64,000 nt of DNA. Source: Leeuwenhoekiella aequorea (GTDB taxonomy: Bacteria; Bacteroidota; Bacteroidia; Flavobacteriales; Flavobacteriaceae). The notes under the pieces are model-generated. The model ran no database searches and was not told where the DNA came from. It saw only the letters and a program-made list of their open reading frames with translations. The translations under genes were made by a program, and so were the position numbers. Of the stretch, positions 30,146 through 35,790 are shown one piece after another. Within the stretch, counting starts at the first letter, position 1, and each line of letters begins with the position of its first letter. The stretch spans positions 248,001 through 312,000 of the forward strand of contig NZ_QOVM01000001.1 in NCBI RefSeq assembly GCF_004104375.1, given 5' to 3'.

Positions 30146-31294
30146 TTATTTTAGGCCAAAAAAAGATTTTATAAATTCTTTTTTAGGTAAACTCCATATT
30201 ATTTCAATGTCTTCTTTTACAGAACTCGTACCATCTAGAAACTTAAAAATTTTAGAGATATCATTCTTTTGAAACATCTGAGTAAAAAGCGCTGCACCCT
30301 GCTCATTGTGACGGTATAGAACATCTAAAAACAGTTTGTCATACCAGCGAAATCGATCTTTAATTTTAAAAGTATTTAAACTAGTATTAGATTTTAGAAA
30401 ATAGATAAGCGCCGCTGTTTTATTTACTGTATTTGTAAATGTATATCCGGTGCTACCACGGGTCCACCCTCCTGCAGTTCCTATAAGCATTACATTTTGC
30501 GAATTATGTTTTTCAAATGGGTAGGCAGTCATTGGGATGCACCCTTTTTCTATTGCGGTTACCTCGTATTGAGAAGCTCCCAGAGACTCCATATAATCTT
30601 CAATGGCAGTTTCATATTCAGAATTTGGTAATAAATCCTGAGAAAATAATGTGTACTCTACGAGAGCAGTTTTTGTTGAAGTAGGTAAAACATACATAAA
30701 TCGTGTATTGCCTTTTTGCTCGATGGAAAAATCCATTAACGTGGCAATTTCGGGATTAAAAACCGGCTCTTGTGTCTTTACTTCCCAGCCTATGAAATGT
30801 TGTTGTAATACAGGAAATGATTTTTGATTTTTTAAACGCTCTGGCGGAAGAATGCTGTTAAACACTTTATTAGCAAAATAAACATTTTGATCTGTAACCA
30901 CTTTAACGCCTATTTCTGTTTCAGTAAGTTCTTTAAAATTTTCAGTTTTAAAACTAACCTGTTCAGAAGCCTGAAGTAATGCAAGAGATTCTTTGTAAAA
31001 GTCGATGCCTTCAACTTTATTATAGCTATAATTTTTTAGCGGAATATTTTTATCATAGGATGCGCTTTTGAATTTTACAAGGTTCCATTTTTTAGAAATT
31101 ATAGAATCCCAAGGGATGGTGTTCTCACTCCAAAAGCACCAGGTTCTATCATTTTTAGTTTTATCTGAATTATCTATGATTAAAATTCGCTTGTCTGAAA
31201 AATAAGAATCGCTCACTAGCGATTTAGCAAGCAATAAGCCAGATAAACCTGCTCCTAAAATTAAATAGTCAAATTGAGGTGTTTGTGCTTGCAT
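30146..31294 (-). CDS. crtY: Lycopene beta-cyclase
   Basis: This 382-residue flavoprotein of the CrtY type converts lycopene to beta-carotene, a step toward zeaxanthin-type yellow pigments of Flavobacteriaceae. The dinucleotide-binding motif LGAGLSGLLLA is at residues 13-23. The cyclase motifs NDRTWCFW, QHFIGWEV, MDF, FMYVLP and GTAGGWTRGSTGYTF are all present, and the length is normal. No crtB, crtI or crtZ is nearby, so the pathway is split. It is the third gene behind the TonB receptor and thioredoxin-like genes (46 bp gap), which may link its expression to metal supply. Confidence 0.95.
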   Translation of the reverse strand: MQAQTPQFDYLILGAGLSGLLLAKSLVSDSYFSDKRILIIDNSDKTKNDRTWCFWSENTIPWDSIISKKWNLVKFKSASYDKNIPLKNYSYNKVEGIDFYKESLALLQASEQVSFKTENFKELTETEIGVKVVTDQNVYFANKVFNSILPPERLKNQKSFPVLQQHFIGWEVKTQEPVFNPEIATLMDFSIEQKGNTRFMYVLPTSTKTALVEYTLFSQDLLPNSEYETAIEDYMESLGASQYEVTAIEKGCIPMTAYPFEKHNSQNVMLIGTAGGWTRGSTGYTFTNTVNKTAALIYFLKSNTSLNTFKIKDRFRWYDKLFLDVLYRHNEQGAALFTQMFQKNDISKIFKFLDGTSSVKEDIEIIWSLPKKEFIKSFFGLK

Positions 31295-31340: not shown

Positions 31341-31820
31341 TTAGTCTTCGAGATAATTAAGTAACGATGCAGAAGTATAATATTCAAAAATACGTTTATT
31401 TACTTCAAATTTTTCAGTAAAGAGCAGGGTAACGGGCAGTGAGAATGCTTTGCCGGTTCTACTGGCTATCAACAAAGCCAATTCATGAACCCCATTTCGT
31501 TTTGTAAGAGCTTGGGTGTTCACAAATCTATTATTGTCAAAATAGATAGTGTCTGTGGTTTCTACATTCATTCGAACAGCATAATAATCTGCGTTGATTT
31601 TGTTGATTACTTCTGGCTTAGTAAATACAACGCGATCAATTTTTTTACAATATGCACACCAGTCTGCGTGAAAAAAAATCAGTGTTTTCTTAGGGTCTTT
31701 CTCTAGCTTAACGTCTAATTCTTCCCAGCTAATCCAATTTATTGGTGGCGCTTTTGTTTGAGAATGAAGGTTTCCGAAATAAAGGAAAAAGCTAATGGCA
31801 AGTAGTTTTAAATAATCCAT
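31341..31820 (-). CDS. Periplasmic thioredoxin-like protein
   Basis: This 159-residue thioredoxin-fold protein has an N-terminal signal or membrane segment (about residues 3-20) and the redox motif WCAYC, with Cys55 and Cys58, within LIFFHADWCAYCKK. It resembles secreted DUF255/thioredoxin_7-like proteins. It should exchange disulfides or reduce a partner in the periplasm. It lies 18 bp after the TonB receptor gene, whose plug domain has an unusual CxxC, so the receptor may be its partner; that link is inference. Confidence 0.85.
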   Translation of the reverse strand: MDYLKLLAISFFLYFGNLHSQTKAPPINWISWEELDVKLEKDPKKTLIFFHADWCAYCKKIDRVVFTKPEVINKINADYYAVRMNVETTDTIYFDNNRFVNTQALTKRNGVHELALLIASRTGKAFSLPVTLLFTEKFEVNKRIFEYYTSASLLNYLED

Positions 31821-31838: not shown

Positions 31839-34199
31839 CTAAAAATCACCAAATCGTATTCCGAAGTATAGCGTACGTGGACGGTTAGGTCCATAGATAT
31901 AATTTGAGTCGCGTAATGGACCCTGGTCAAAATCTTTTTGATAATTATTAAAAATATTTTGTACGCCACCGCTTAACTCTATATGTAGGTTTTCGGCAAG
32001 ATCAAAATGATACGTTGCTTTAGTGCTTATATCCATAAAGGACCGAGTTTTATCTAGAGTTAGAAATCCACTGTCGCTAATTACGTGTGGGGTAAGCATA
32101 CTACCAGTAAAGCTTCCTGTTAAATCCAGGTTTACAGCTTCGCTTACAGTCCAGTTTGTATTAAAAAAACCATACACATTAGGCGACCGCAAAAATTCGT
32201 TAGTTGAAACATCTGCTTCCAGTGCATTACGACCATCTGCTTCAAATAAAATTTGATCTTCATTGTAGATTGATTTTTGGTAGGTAATACCTGCTTGAAA
32301 TAAAAGTGCTTTACTGGGAGATAGGTGAAATTCGATATTTGTACCGGCAACATACGCACCACTTCCGTTACGAGATTCTTCAAGAATTGATCCATTAGGT
32401 AATGATGCACCTGTACTAACTAGGGTAAACGGATTTTCTAAGGTTGTATAAAATCCTTCAATAAGCAAACTGGTTTGCACCTTATTAAACACTTTTGTGA
32501 AATTTAGAGAACCCGTAAATGCATTTGAAAATTCACTTTCTAAATCGTTAGACAAAATTACAAAGCGTTGTTCACCACCCACCGAACTTATGTGTAAATC
32601 TTCATTAAAAGCTTGAGGGGCTCTAAAACCACGAGCATAACCACCTCTAAATTGTAAATTATCGGTAAAATTATAAAGTAGCGTTAAACGCGGACTTATA
32701 ACGGTTTGTGATACGTTTGCGTTTCTAGTGATATTCTCTATTTGATAGAATCCATCTACGTTAATATGATCTAAGCGCGCTCCTAACAAGGCTGTAAAAT
32801 TTGCTAATGGCTTCCATTCATATTGACTGTACAAACCATAATTATTTACTTTTTGATCAACGATACGAGTATAACCTGCAATGGCATCTTCAGTTTCATT
32901 AAGCTGATATTCTATTCCTGAAGTAAGAACATCCTCATTTTTGAAAGTATGTGTGAATTTTAGTCCGGATACAAATGCAAGATCGGTGGTTTTTCCAAAA
33001 GCATTATTAGCTGCGATAGAATCTGCTCGTGTTCTGCCACCACCCAGACCACCATAATAACTGTCTCGATCTGTATGCTGTATTGATGCATAGGTTGTTA
33101 AGTTGTTTGTATGATCATCATTAAATAAATCGTAATCTACACCAGCAAATATGGTATTGTGATCAAGCTCTTCGGTAATATCTGTGAACTGCGGAGCAAG
33201 ATTAAGTTGATCTCCACCACGCCGATATTCTCTAATTGCCGTAAAATCGAGCCCTATCTTACTCGTATTGTTAGGTCTGTAAAAGGCCTTTGCGCCCAGC
33301 GAATTATTAGTGAGTTTTGTGATTTCACTAAAACCATCCTCATTAGCGTCAAATGAATCGCGATTACGGTAAATCCCATACAAAGTGACACCACTTGACA
33401 AATCCTCACTTACTAGTGAGGTGTTTAGGTTTAAGCTACGGTCTGGTGTTTTACCAGCTATTAGACCAATATTACTGGTTATTTCCCAGCTGCTATTGAC
33501 CGGTTCTTTTGTAATAATGTTTATTGTTCCTGCAATGGCACTGGAACCAAATAAAGCAGAACCCCCACTACGTACAACTTCTACCCGATCAATAATGCTT
33601 ACCGGTATTTGTTCTAATCCATAAACGCCATTAAGTGCACTAAAAACTGGCCTGCTATTAAGCAGAACCTGTGTATATTGTCCACCTAATCCATTAAGTC
33701 GTACTTGTGTAAATCCGCAATTTTGACAATTTGTCTCGACACGTACCCCCGGCTGATAATTTAGGCCGTCTGCCAGAGAAATTGATTGTGTAGCTTTAAA
33801 GAGTTTCGAACTTAGCACATTTACTATTACCGCCGCCTTTTTTTTACTAATTCTATTGCGTGTGGCGCTAACTACAATTTCCTCTAAGCCAAGTAGATCT
33901 TCTATAAGAACAAAGTTTAAGGCGGTACTGCTGTAGTTTGCAGGGATAATTTTTTTTCTTAAGGTTTTGAAACCTACAGCTTGTATAATAAGCGTAACTG
34001 GCTCGTTAGGTAAATTTATTTTGTAAGCTCCATTGCTATCTGCGGCAGTACCTGTGTTGTGATTTTCTACAGATACAGTAGCAAATGGTAATTCTTGATC
34101 ATTAGCACTAATATTTCCTGAAACTGTCAACTCATTTTGACCTAAGCAGATGTTAAAAATATTTAGAATAAGTAGAGTAATAATATATTTTGCAGCCAT
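31839..34199 (-). CDS. TonB-dependent outer-membrane receptor, metal or siderophore uptake
   Basis: This 786-residue TonB-dependent receptor has a signal peptide and an N-terminal carboxypeptidase-like beta-sandwich (residues 23-100). The plug (about 105-235) has LGLEEIVVSATRNR and ends in ALFGSSAIAGTINIITKEP; a 22-strand barrel follows. The plug carries CQNC (Cys158, Cys161) in a stretch also seen in Bacteroidota iron/heme receptors of the HmuR/CirA type. It is divergent from a DtxR-family repressor, and the predicted operator overlaps its promoter, so the substrate is probably an iron, manganese or zinc complex. It starts an operon with the thioredoxin-like and crtY genes. Confidence 0.92.
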   Translation of the reverse strand: MAAKYIITLLILNIFNICLGQNELTVSGNISANDQELPFATVSVENHNTGTAADSNGAYKINLPNEPVTLIIQAVGFKTLRKKIIPANYSSTALNFVLIEDLLGLEEIVVSATRNRISKKKAAVIVNVLSSKLFKATQSISLADGLNYQPGVRVETNCQNCGFTQVRLNGLGGQYTQVLLNSRPVFSALNGVYGLEQIPVSIIDRVEVVRSGGSALFGSSAIAGTINIITKEPVNSSWEITSNIGLIAGKTPDRSLNLNTSLVSEDLSSGVTLYGIYRNRDSFDANEDGFSEITKLTNNSLGAKAFYRPNNTSKIGLDFTAIREYRRGGDQLNLAPQFTDITEELDHNTIFAGVDYDLFNDDHTNNLTTYASIQHTDRDSYYGGLGGGRTRADSIAANNAFGKTTDLAFVSGLKFTHTFKNEDVLTSGIEYQLNETEDAIAGYTRIVDQKVNNYGLYSQYEWKPLANFTALLGARLDHINVDGFYQIENITRNANVSQTVISPRLTLLYNFTDNLQFRGGYARGFRAPQAFNEDLHISSVGGEQRFVILSNDLESEFSNAFTGSLNFTKVFNKVQTSLLIEGFYTTLENPFTLVSTGASLPNGSILEESRNGSGAYVAGTNIEFHLSPSKALLFQAGITYQKSIYNEDQILFEADGRNALEADVSTNEFLRSPNVYGFFNTNWTVSEAVNLDLTGSFTGSMLTPHVISDSGFLTLDKTRSFMDISTKATYHFDLAENLHIELSGGVQNIFNNYQKDFDQGPLRDSNYIYGPNRPRTLYFGIRFGDF

Positions 34200-34221
34200 T
34201 TAAGTGTGTCTTAAAATAAAA

Positions 34222-34237
34222 TTTAGGCAAACCTAAA
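34222..34237. promoter_or_regulatory. Predicted DtxR-family operator
   Basis: TTTAGGCAAACCTAAA is a perfect inverted repeat (TTTAGG, 4 nt, CCTAAA) in the divergent region between the TonB receptor and the DtxR-type regulator. The TTAGG/CCTAA arms are like those of DtxR/SirR-type metal boxes. The site contains the receptor's -7 element and lies 4 bp from the regulator's own -7 element. Confidence 0.75.
34228..34235 (-). promoter_or_regulatory. Candidate -7 element of the TonB receptor operon
   Basis: TAGGTTTG on the minus strand exactly fits TAnnTTTG and lies inside the predicted operator, 29 bp before the receptor start. A -33 TTG is not apparent. Confidence 0.55.
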
Positions 34238-34240
34238 AAA

Positions 34241-34248
34241 TATATTTG
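34241..34248 (+). promoter_or_regulatory. Candidate -7 element of the dtxR-like gene
   Basis: TATATTTG exactly fits TAnnTTTG and lies 41 bp before ATG 34289. It sits next to the predicted operator, which suggests autoregulation. Confidence 0.5.
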
Positions 34249-34288
34249 ATTTTTTTGGCGTATTATTGCGGTATAATTAAAAATAACA

Positions 34289-34939
34289 ATGACATTTTCT
34301 GAGGAAAACTATTTAAAGTCTATTTATACCTTGCAAAAGGATAGTCCTAAAGGGGTAAGTACTAATGTGTTGTCTCAATACTTAGTAACTAAACCAGCTT
34401 CAGCTACAGAAATGATTAAAAAGCTGAATGATAAGGATTTAGTGGTATATCAACCTTATCAAGGAGTGTTATTAAATAAAAATGGCGAAGAGATAGCATT
34501 ACGTGTGATTCGGAAACACCGCTTGTGGGAAACATTTTTGGCTCAAAAGTTAGATTTTAGTTGGGATGAAATACATGATGTGGCTGAACAACTTGAGCAT
34601 ATTCAATCTGAGAAACTCATACGTGAATTGGATCGTTTCTTAGGATTTCCAAAGCATGATCCTCACGGAGATCCTATTCCTGATGCAGATGGCAATGTCG
34701 TTAAAATGGAAAAAAAGAGGGTTTCTCAACTAGTACCCGGTGATGTAGGTACTTGTATAGGTGTTAACGATACCTCCTCATCTTTTCTTCAATTTTTAGA
34801 TCAACAAAAAATTAAATTGGGTACTGTGTTAGAAATACTCAGCCTACAGGAGTTTGATAAAAGTATGCTTGTACGCATAGACGACAGGGAGCTGTCCTTA
34901 TCACAAATTGCTACAGAGCATATATATGTACGTATTTAA
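34289..34939 (+). CDS. DtxR-family metal-dependent repressor
   Basis: This 216-residue regulator has the DtxR/MntR layout. A winged helix-turn-helix covers residues 1-62 (SEENYLKSIYTLQ and SATEMIKKLNDKDLV). The metal-binding and dimerisation domain (about 65-140) contains RKHRLWETFL, HDVAEQLEHI and FPKHDPHGDPIPD. A FeoA-like SH3 domain ends the protein. With metal bound, such proteins repress uptake genes. The neighbours, a TonB receptor and a ZIP transporter, fit control of iron, manganese or zinc import. Which metal it senses cannot be told from sequence. The ZIP gene follows after 29 bp. Confidence 0.93.
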   Translation: MTFSEENYLKSIYTLQKDSPKGVSTNVLSQYLVTKPASATEMIKKLNDKDLVVYQPYQGVLLNKNGEEIALRVIRKHRLWETFLAQKLDFSWDEIHDVAEQLEHIQSEKLIRELDRFLGFPKHDPHGDPIPDADGNVVKMEKKRVSQLVPGDVGTCIGVNDTSSSFLQFLDQQKIKLGTVLEILSLQEFDKSMLVRIDDRELSLSQIATEHIYVRI

Positions 34940-34968: not shown

Positions 34969-35790
34969 ATGAATGAATTAATTGATTATTTTGAAACTTT
35001 AAGCCCTGTTAGAGGAGCTTTTTATGCAACACTTTTTACGTGGGGAGTTACTGCATTAGGTGCATCGTTAGTGTTCTTTTTTAAAGGGATGAACCGTAAA
35101 GTGTTTGATGCAATGCTTGGTTTTACGGGAGGAGTAATGGTCGCGGCAAGTTTCTGGAGTTTATTAGCTCCCGGGATTGAAATGAGTCCGGGTGAAGGTT
35201 TTGTAAAAGTTATACCTGCTGCGGTAGGCTTTGCACTGGGTGCTGCCTTTCTATTTGGCCTTGACAAAGTGTTACCACATTTACACGTCAATTTTAAAAT
35301 GGAAGACAAAGAAGGAATAAAAACGCCTTGGCATAAATCGGTTTTGCTCACATTGGCAATTACATTACATAATATCCCAGAAGGTTTAGCTGTAGGTGTT
35401 CTATTTGGAGGTGTTGCTGCAGGTTTTGAAGGAGCAAGTATAGGTGGAGCAGTAGCTTTAGCGATAGGGATAGGCTTGCAAAATTTTCCCGAAGGTTTTG
35501 CTGTCGCTATGCCATTACGAAGACAAGGCTTTAGTAGATGGAAAAGCTTTAATTATGGCCAACTATCTGCAATAGTTGAGCCAATGGCGGCAGTTTTAGG
35601 AGCTTATGCAGTGATGACTTTCAAGCCTATTTTACCGTATGCTTTAGCTTTTGCCGCGGGAGCAATGATTTTTGTAGTAGTAGAAGAAGTTGTCCCAGAA
35701 TCACAACAAGATAACAATACAGATATTGCTACTTTAGGATTTATAGGCGGTTTTATACTTATGATGACACTGGATGTCGGCCTGGGTTAA
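34969..35790 (+). CDS. ZIP-family divalent metal transporter
   Basis: This 273-residue inner-membrane importer of the GufA/ZupT branch has about eight membrane helices. The metal-site motifs are intact: HNIPEGLAVG (His134) and QNFPEGFAVA (Gln171). A His-containing loop (LPHLHVNFKMEDKE) lies between helices 3 and 4. It is 29 bp behind the DtxR-like gene and probably in the same transcript, so the repressor likely controls its own transporter. Iron, zinc or manganese is the probable cargo. It should take up metal delivered to the periplasm by the divergent TonB receptor. Confidence 0.94.
   Translation: MNELIDYFETLSPVRGAFYATLFTWGVTALGASLVFFFKGMNRKVFDAMLGFTGGVMVAASFWSLLAPGIEMSPGEGFVKVIPAAVGFALGAAFLFGLDKVLPHLHVNFKMEDKEGIKTPWHKSVLLTLAITLHNIPEGLAVGVLFGGVAAGFEGASIGGAVALAIGIGLQNFPEGFAVAMPLRRQGFSRWKSFNYGQLSAIVEPMAAVLGAYAVMTFKPILPYALAFAAGAMIFVVVEEVVPESQQDNNTDIATLGFIGGFILMMTLDVGLG

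Follow-up and report, generated by a model that had tools for sequence, protein, structure and literature searches.

The published half operator bound by a single dimer of IdeR or DtxR has the consensus TTAGGNNNNCCTAA (PMC8464063). In the Bacteroidota, PgMntR (PG1044) of Porphyromonas gingivalis is described as binding both manganese and iron, as well as the promoter of its own operon (PMC4805248), and a listing of the iron stimulon of the same species includes this operon (PMC10434189). In Stenotrophomonas maltophilia, a TonB-dependent receptor with a CQNC motif and a periplasmic thioredoxin-fold gene are placed under MntR in a 2026 paper, which reports that the module is induced under joint manganese and iron limitation (PMC13217887). 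Among the matches listed from the open-access literature, no operator was described for a DtxR/MntR regulator of Flavobacteriaceae, PgMntR being the nearest case, and the family-wide form, the single-site use and the -7 overlap of the box considered below were not found in those matches.

The window, which is the whole stretch of 64,000 nucleotides from Leeuwenhoekiella aequorea, contains a locus in which a receptor arm and a regulator arm diverge from a short shared region. Its features are as follows.

Between 34199 and 34289: divergent gap of 89 bp, from the receptor start at 34199 (minus strand) to the dtxR start at 34289 (plus strand).
34222-34237, no strand: putative operator TTTAGGCAAACCTAAA, an inverted repeat TTTAGG-N4-CCTAAA, from the window motif search and conservation.
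34223-34230, minus strand: predicted receptor -7 element TAGGTTTG (TAnnTTTG) within the operator, from the fixed CAAA spacer.
34261-34268, plus strand: favoured dtxR -7 element TATTATTG, one letter from TAnnTTTG, from its position in the family.
34240-34247, plus strand: TATATTTG, alternative candidate for the dtxR -7 element (the choice of the preliminary description), matching the consensus exactly in 9 of the 13 members of the genus.
34289-34939, plus strand: dtxR/mntR-like repressor of 216 aa with HTH, metal/dimer and FeoA domains (PF01325, PF02742, PF04023).
34969-35790, plus strand: ZIP metal transporter (PF02535), starting 29 bp 3' of dtxR.
31839-34199, minus strand: TonB-dependent receptor with CQNC in the plug at residues 158-161 (PF00593, PF07715).
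31341-31820, minus strand: thioredoxin-like protein with WCAYC (PF13899/PF13098), 18 bp past the receptor gene.
30146-31294, minus strand: lycopene cyclase crtY (PF05834), 46 bp past the thioredoxin gene.

The main reading, to which we assign a probability of about 0.8, is that the box at 34222-34237 is the operator of the adjacent regulator and that a metal-loaded dimer at this site, most likely of the manganese type, would repress both arms.

The perfect form TTTAGGNNNNCCTAAA occurs once in the window as compared with a mean of 0.02 expected, and only 2 of 100 shuffled sequences held a copy; the repeat, noted in the preliminary description as the only perfect one in the 89-bp gap, is the sole copy even in 64 kb. 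When up to two mismatches are allowed, the window gives 7 matches against 5.7 expected, so that its weak copies carry no meaning. The genome scan proposed in the preliminary description gave four copies with perfect arms, and the three besides that of the window lie within ORFs (pgk-, rimK- and SCO1-like, as judged by eye). The relaxed form TTTAG-N6-CTAAA occurs at 30 places in the genome, against 25 for the reversed-pattern control. Twenty-five of these 30 places are in ORFs of at least 80 aa and five are intergenic, the one in the window alone having perfect arms; another of the five (C2:161146) is directly 5' of a response-regulator-like ORF, with an Nramp gene some 4 kb away. Because of this ratio of 30 to 25, box counts within the genome were discarded as evidence, and the case for an operator rests on position and conservation, not on abundance. 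Since the other genomic copies lie in ORFs or lack perfect arms, the box seems to serve as a switch for a single locus in this Leeuwenhoekiella genome. A global regulon was also considered by searching 199 family genomes with TTTAGRCAAAYCTAAA, which gave 54 places in 48 genomes (11 for the reversed control), and was rejected: context was examined for 30 of the 54 places, and among the 29 other than that of the window, 12 fall within genes, and the intergenic ones comprise 16 at dtxR and/or a receptor and one elsewhere.

In the divergent regions of 13 Leeuwenhoekiella members, the mean top-letter frequency is 0.99 over the 16-bp box, 0.69 over the 25 bp to its left and 0.83 over the 54 bp to its right; TTTAG-N6-CTAAA is present in all 13, with perfect TTTAGG/CCTAAA arms in 12. 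At the level of the family, a search for the regulator over 159 genomes gave a match in 149. Every listed match outside the genus with at least 37% identity was fetched, together with three weaker ones (G068:C20, G185 and G160, from among the homologues at 33-36% identity), as 120 stretches with flanks of about 4 kb on the upstream and 3 kb on the downstream side of the regulator, where the contig was long enough. With genus members included and duplicates dropped, this gave 133 loci, 126 of which have a regulator of at least 42% identity (13 from the genus and 113 others); the 126 exclude L023-L025, on the same contigs as L051-L053, and seven regulators below 42% identity (L264-L268, L270 and L271), and L029-L045 received a preliminary look only. 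The 126 loci are not independent genera, because a few genomes give two loci each.

At 111 of the 126 loci, the exact TTTAG-N6-CTAAA is found no more than 250 bp upstream of dtxR, as compared with 0.08 expected from shuffles, and over 136 loci 124 boxes were counted against 3 reversed-pattern controls. Six of the 15 loci without an exact box (L153, L155, L182, L213, L248 and L269) carry a copy with one mismatch in the usual position, and four (L260-L263) have the paired variant GTTAG-N6-CTAAC, which is also found at L264 and L267, loci of more diverged regulators. Such a paired change from T..A to G..C is the behaviour that would be expected of a palindrome read by a protein. At L156, the box precedes an Nramp gene that lies upstream of dtxR as an Nramp-dtxR pair, and at L229 a copy lies at -461 relative to dtxR; at L208, L226 and L241 (3 of the 126 loci) no recognisable box was seen. 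The preliminary description had named a lack of conservation in related divergent regions as the outcome that counts against an operator, and the scan of relatives that it proposed gives the opposite result, with the box at 111 loci and variant or differently placed copies at 12 more. A chance palindrome in AT-rich DNA would be in line with the mismatched copies of the window, hardly above shuffles, and with the slight genome-wide enrichment of the exact form; however, the rarity expected of the perfect match and, above all, the conservation at 111 of 126 loci already refute this explanation, whose probability is vanishingly small. Judged from sequence comparison, 34222-34237 is a conserved operator, most likely that of the adjacent DtxR-family regulator. 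In a distant DtxR subfamily (about 35% identity; L268, L270 and L271), the box is absent and another palindrome, TTTAAG-N4-CTTAAA, is found at -39, -37 and -37 relative to dtxR, respectively; the next gene at these loci has the TDRPD motif of PF13557-type proteins.

The box accompanies each arm on its own, because it is kept without a receptor and, in loci of the Flavobacterium type, precedes Nramp genes or distant receptors. No receptor was recognised beside dtxR at 42 of the 111 box loci, some of which may hide a diverged receptor because 13 of them have an unclassified minus-strand ORF at the receptor place. In the 72 loci taken from named records (L054-L125), nearly all of which are from Flavobacterium and are here called Flavobacterium-type, Nramp lies upstream of dtxR in 70, and all 70 Nramp genes have a box ahead of them. 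A further 53 boxes lie ahead of receptors, nearly all of them kilobases from dtxR, and of the remainder four are in ORFs and one is elsewhere. The reversed control GATTT-N6-AAATC occurs 55 times in these loci against 128 boxes, perhaps as one conserved coding site. If the box controlled only the dtxR operon and the receptor were a mere neighbour, the 42 loci without a recognised receptor would be readily explained; however, the 53 Flavobacterium-type receptors, mostly far from dtxR, each have a box of their own with the -7 letters embedded in it, and this explanation is very unlikely.

The -7 consensus of Bacteroidota promoters, TAnnTTTG, spans positions -12 to -5 relative to the start (PMC9723704). 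The minus strand through the box reads TAGnTTTG whenever the spacer is CAAA, and 12 of 13 genus members and all 53 Flavobacterium receptor boxes have this spacer, as compared with 2 of 70 Nramp boxes. Among receptor loci outside the genus, a minus-strand TAnnTTTG within 35 bp to the left of the box was found in only 3 of the 26 with CAAA; in the 30 without CAAA, an outside TAnnTTTG was found in 28, and in all 28 it lies 7-9 bp from the box. Such a split would arise from a promoter that is either embedded in the box or kept at a constant position next to it. For the promoter shift, the Fisher value (2e-10, kinship ignored) is too strong a figure, because the loci are related and the tree shows no more than 4 to 6 changes of the traits; a tree-aware test gave 3 to 0 over three informative pairs (p 0.25), after which the Fisher statistic was downgraded as proof. 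The leader lengths of the two receptor classes were dropped as support since they differ (median 29 versus 17 bases).

It might be argued that the receptor uses a different promoter and that TAGGTTTG arises in the box simply through the spacer letters, considering that no clear -33 element is evident for the receptor promoter, that the tree-aware test is not significant, and that in other genera the -7 element lies outside the box. The constancy of CAAA in the genus and in the Flavobacterium receptor boxes, where the Nramp boxes vary, and the 23 of 26 CAAA loci that have no outside -7 element speak against this possibility, which is unlikely. The placement of the receptor -7 element within the operator, as in the preliminary description, is supported as a predicted promoter by the fixed spacer letters, within the limit that the tree-aware comparison has no more than three informative pairs. 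On the dtxR side, 98 loci outside the genus were compared: 80 of them have TAnnTTTG at a distance of 40-47 bases from the start of the box, and one has it at the TATATTTG offset. Among the 13 genus members, 11 show TAnn(A/T)TTG at +39, and 9 show TAnnTTTG in its exact form at +19. With somewhat better than even odds, TATTATTG would be the dtxR -7 element. The TATATTTG named for this role in the preliminary description is indeed present at 34240-34247, but its function is doubtful in view of the single locus outside the genus that has it at this offset.

The gene 3' of dtxR in the 126 loci encodes a ZIP transporter in 53, Nramp in 11, a ZnuA-type binding protein in 10 and a PF13557-type protein in 14, the latter two labels being given to loci grouped by a shared motif with one representative each scanned; in 15 the next gene is again DtxR-like and is accompanied by feoB pieces, 4 have other genes and 19 have none. 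In the window, dtxR and the ZIP gene, whose best NCBIfam match is ZupT, below its cut-off, are likely in the same operon. On the opposite side, the thioredoxin-like protein has a signal peptide, as judged by eye, and crtY may belong to the receptor/thioredoxin operon, as the gene order suggests; crtY is found upstream of dtxR on the opposite strand in 30 of the 126 loci. In L181, L205, L219, L231 and L245, crtY is the nearest recognised divergent neighbour. In the 15 loci with feoB pieces (L159, 4585-5607 oriented, and 14 others), a DtxR-like protein is encoded between dtxR and these pieces; that of L159, the one scanned with Pfam, has metal and FeoA domains, no HTH match and, by eye, an N-terminal hydrophobic stretch, and is possibly a membrane-tethered metal sensor.

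The regulator matches PF01325, PF02742 and PF04023 above their gathering scores. Its best solved relatives are 5zr4, 8pvt, SloR, ScaR and 6o5c (1e-41 to 2e-26), of which we take 8pvt to be DR2539 and 6o5c to be MtsR. SloR (6e-31) and ScaR (1e-27) are closer than the IdeR, DtxR and MntR entries (2e-14 or weaker), and the E-value of Bacillus subtilis MntR is no better than that of DtxR. The DtxR-type regulator of the preliminary description is thus borne out in its family domains, but its sequence is nearer to ScaR and SloR than to DtxR and IdeR. Every cut-off of the NCBIfam MntR and DtxR models is missed, the best score being that of the MntR model NF047407 (154.6 bits against a cut-off of 350; DtxR, 62.3 against 290). 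Metal ligands were mapped through the printed alignments and ligand lists in PMC4805248, which place the primary site at N7, E100, E103 and H104 and a ScaR-type second site at E81, D124, H126 and D161. The mapped ligands are nearly invariant among 126 homologues except for N7 and D161: E100 is kept in 125, and E103, H104, H77, E81, H96, D124 and H126 in all 126, whereas the N7 column has Asn in 104, Asp in 15 and a gap in 7. The E99/C102 position is Glu, not Cys, in 125 of 126. Because neither site contains Met or Cys, the ligands are closer to those of MntR and ScaR than to those of DtxR, although Asn as first ligand in place of the Asp of MntR is unusual.

A C-x-x-C motif at the plug position is present in 66 of 73 linked receptors longer than 500 aa (CNVC in 34, CQNC in 19, CQTC in 7 and others in 6), and WCxxC in all 22 thioredoxin homologues found, that of the window included. 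The two hallmarks of the CQNC-type module, the CQNC plug and an adjacent thioredoxin-fold gene, are both present at the window locus. Taken from the ligands, the linked importers and the CQNC receptor with its thioredoxin partner, the sensed metal is probably manganese. Alternatively, the same operator and repressor may respond to Fe(II), as in DtxR and IdeR, with the receptor importing an iron chelate. In favour of iron, the core of the operator matches the IdeR half-site, feoB is found close to dtxR in the window and in many relatives, the NCBIfam matches of the receptor are mostly siderophore, heme and B12 receptors (all below cut-off), and PgMntR binds both metals and has its operon in an iron stimulon. 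However, the N/E/E/H primary ligands and a second site without Cys, the closer relation to SloR and ScaR, the box ahead of every Nramp gene in the Flavobacterium-type loci and the lack of a box at the feoB of this window make iron sensing rather unlikely, though it keeps a substantial share of the probability.

Comparison among relatives brings out the predicted operator, its link to dtxR and the receptor, and the fixed letters of the -7 element; from these we infer binding and repression as follows. In cells with enough Mn(II), or possibly Fe(II), the probably ScaR/MntR-like repressor would occupy the single site as a dimer loaded with metal. The bound dimer would cover the receptor -7 element, so that RNA polymerase would be unable to open the receptor promoter, and would lie against the upstream side of the promoter of the regulator, by which dtxR-ZIP would be damped. 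When metal is scarce, the dimer would be released and both arms would be turned on, one supplying the outer-membrane receptor and periplasmic thioredoxin (with crtY) and the other the regulator and an inner-membrane ZIP importer. Control of the thioredoxin gene, crtY and the ZIP gene by the box, and with it the reach of the operons to crtY and ZIP, is suggested by gene order, and the identity of the metal by the comparisons given above.

More broadly, and with less than even confidence, the locus might represent a self-contained manganese-uptake island that is widespread in Flavobacteriaceae. Such an island would combine a receptor with a CxxC plug (CQNC, CNVC or CQTC) for Mn(II) or a manganese chelate, a thioredoxin that keeps the receptor cysteines reduced in many lineages, an exchangeable importer (ZIP, Nramp, ZnuA-type ABC or FeoB-like) and one MntR-type operator either fused with the -7 element or 7-9 bp from it, crtY being co-opted in some lineages. 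A box with a known consensus is a ready probe for metal regulation across Flavobacteriaceae, a candidate outer-membrane manganese receptor can be named in many genera, and a natural comparison is offered by one operator that has the unusual Bacteroidota -7 element either within it or at its side.

Several features of the locus recur in the described systems. PgMntR is likewise a DtxR-family regulator of the Bacteroidota, its operon includes the manganese importer FB2 and its binding is raised by manganese; it differs in having two FeoA domains and Asp19/Cys108, and, in the accessible text, a 385-bp fragment was tested and the operator was not defined (PMC4805248). The S. maltophilia module, which is compared by description only, shares the CQNC receptor plug, the neighbouring thioredoxin-fold partner and a nearby mntR, and differs in its phylum, its 25-bp box, CAPC where CAYC is found here, and MntH as importer in place of ZIP (PMC13217887). 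TroR of Treponema is a manganese- and iron-responsive repressor of the DtxR family whose single operator in T. pallidum, a dyad, overlaps the promoter; however, this operator is 18 bp long and of other sequence, its target is an ABC transporter, and no receptor is involved, as far as the accessible text goes (PMC2628430). ScaR, SloR and related manganese regulators have in common with the window regulator three domains, the E/E/H primary ligands and the His sites, whereas the first-ligand Asp is mostly Asn in the family of the window regulator and the position of ScaR Cys123 is Asp124. Finally, the window core TTAGGCAAACCTAA fits the IdeR/DtxR half-operator consensus letter for letter, and the regulator superfamily is shared; the operator type is therefore already known. 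In contrast to that half operator, the box of the Flavobacteriaceae relaxes family-wide to TTTAG-N6-CTAAA, overlaps the Bacteroidota TAnnTTTG and is accompanied by a regulator whose ligands are nearer to those of ScaR and MntR.
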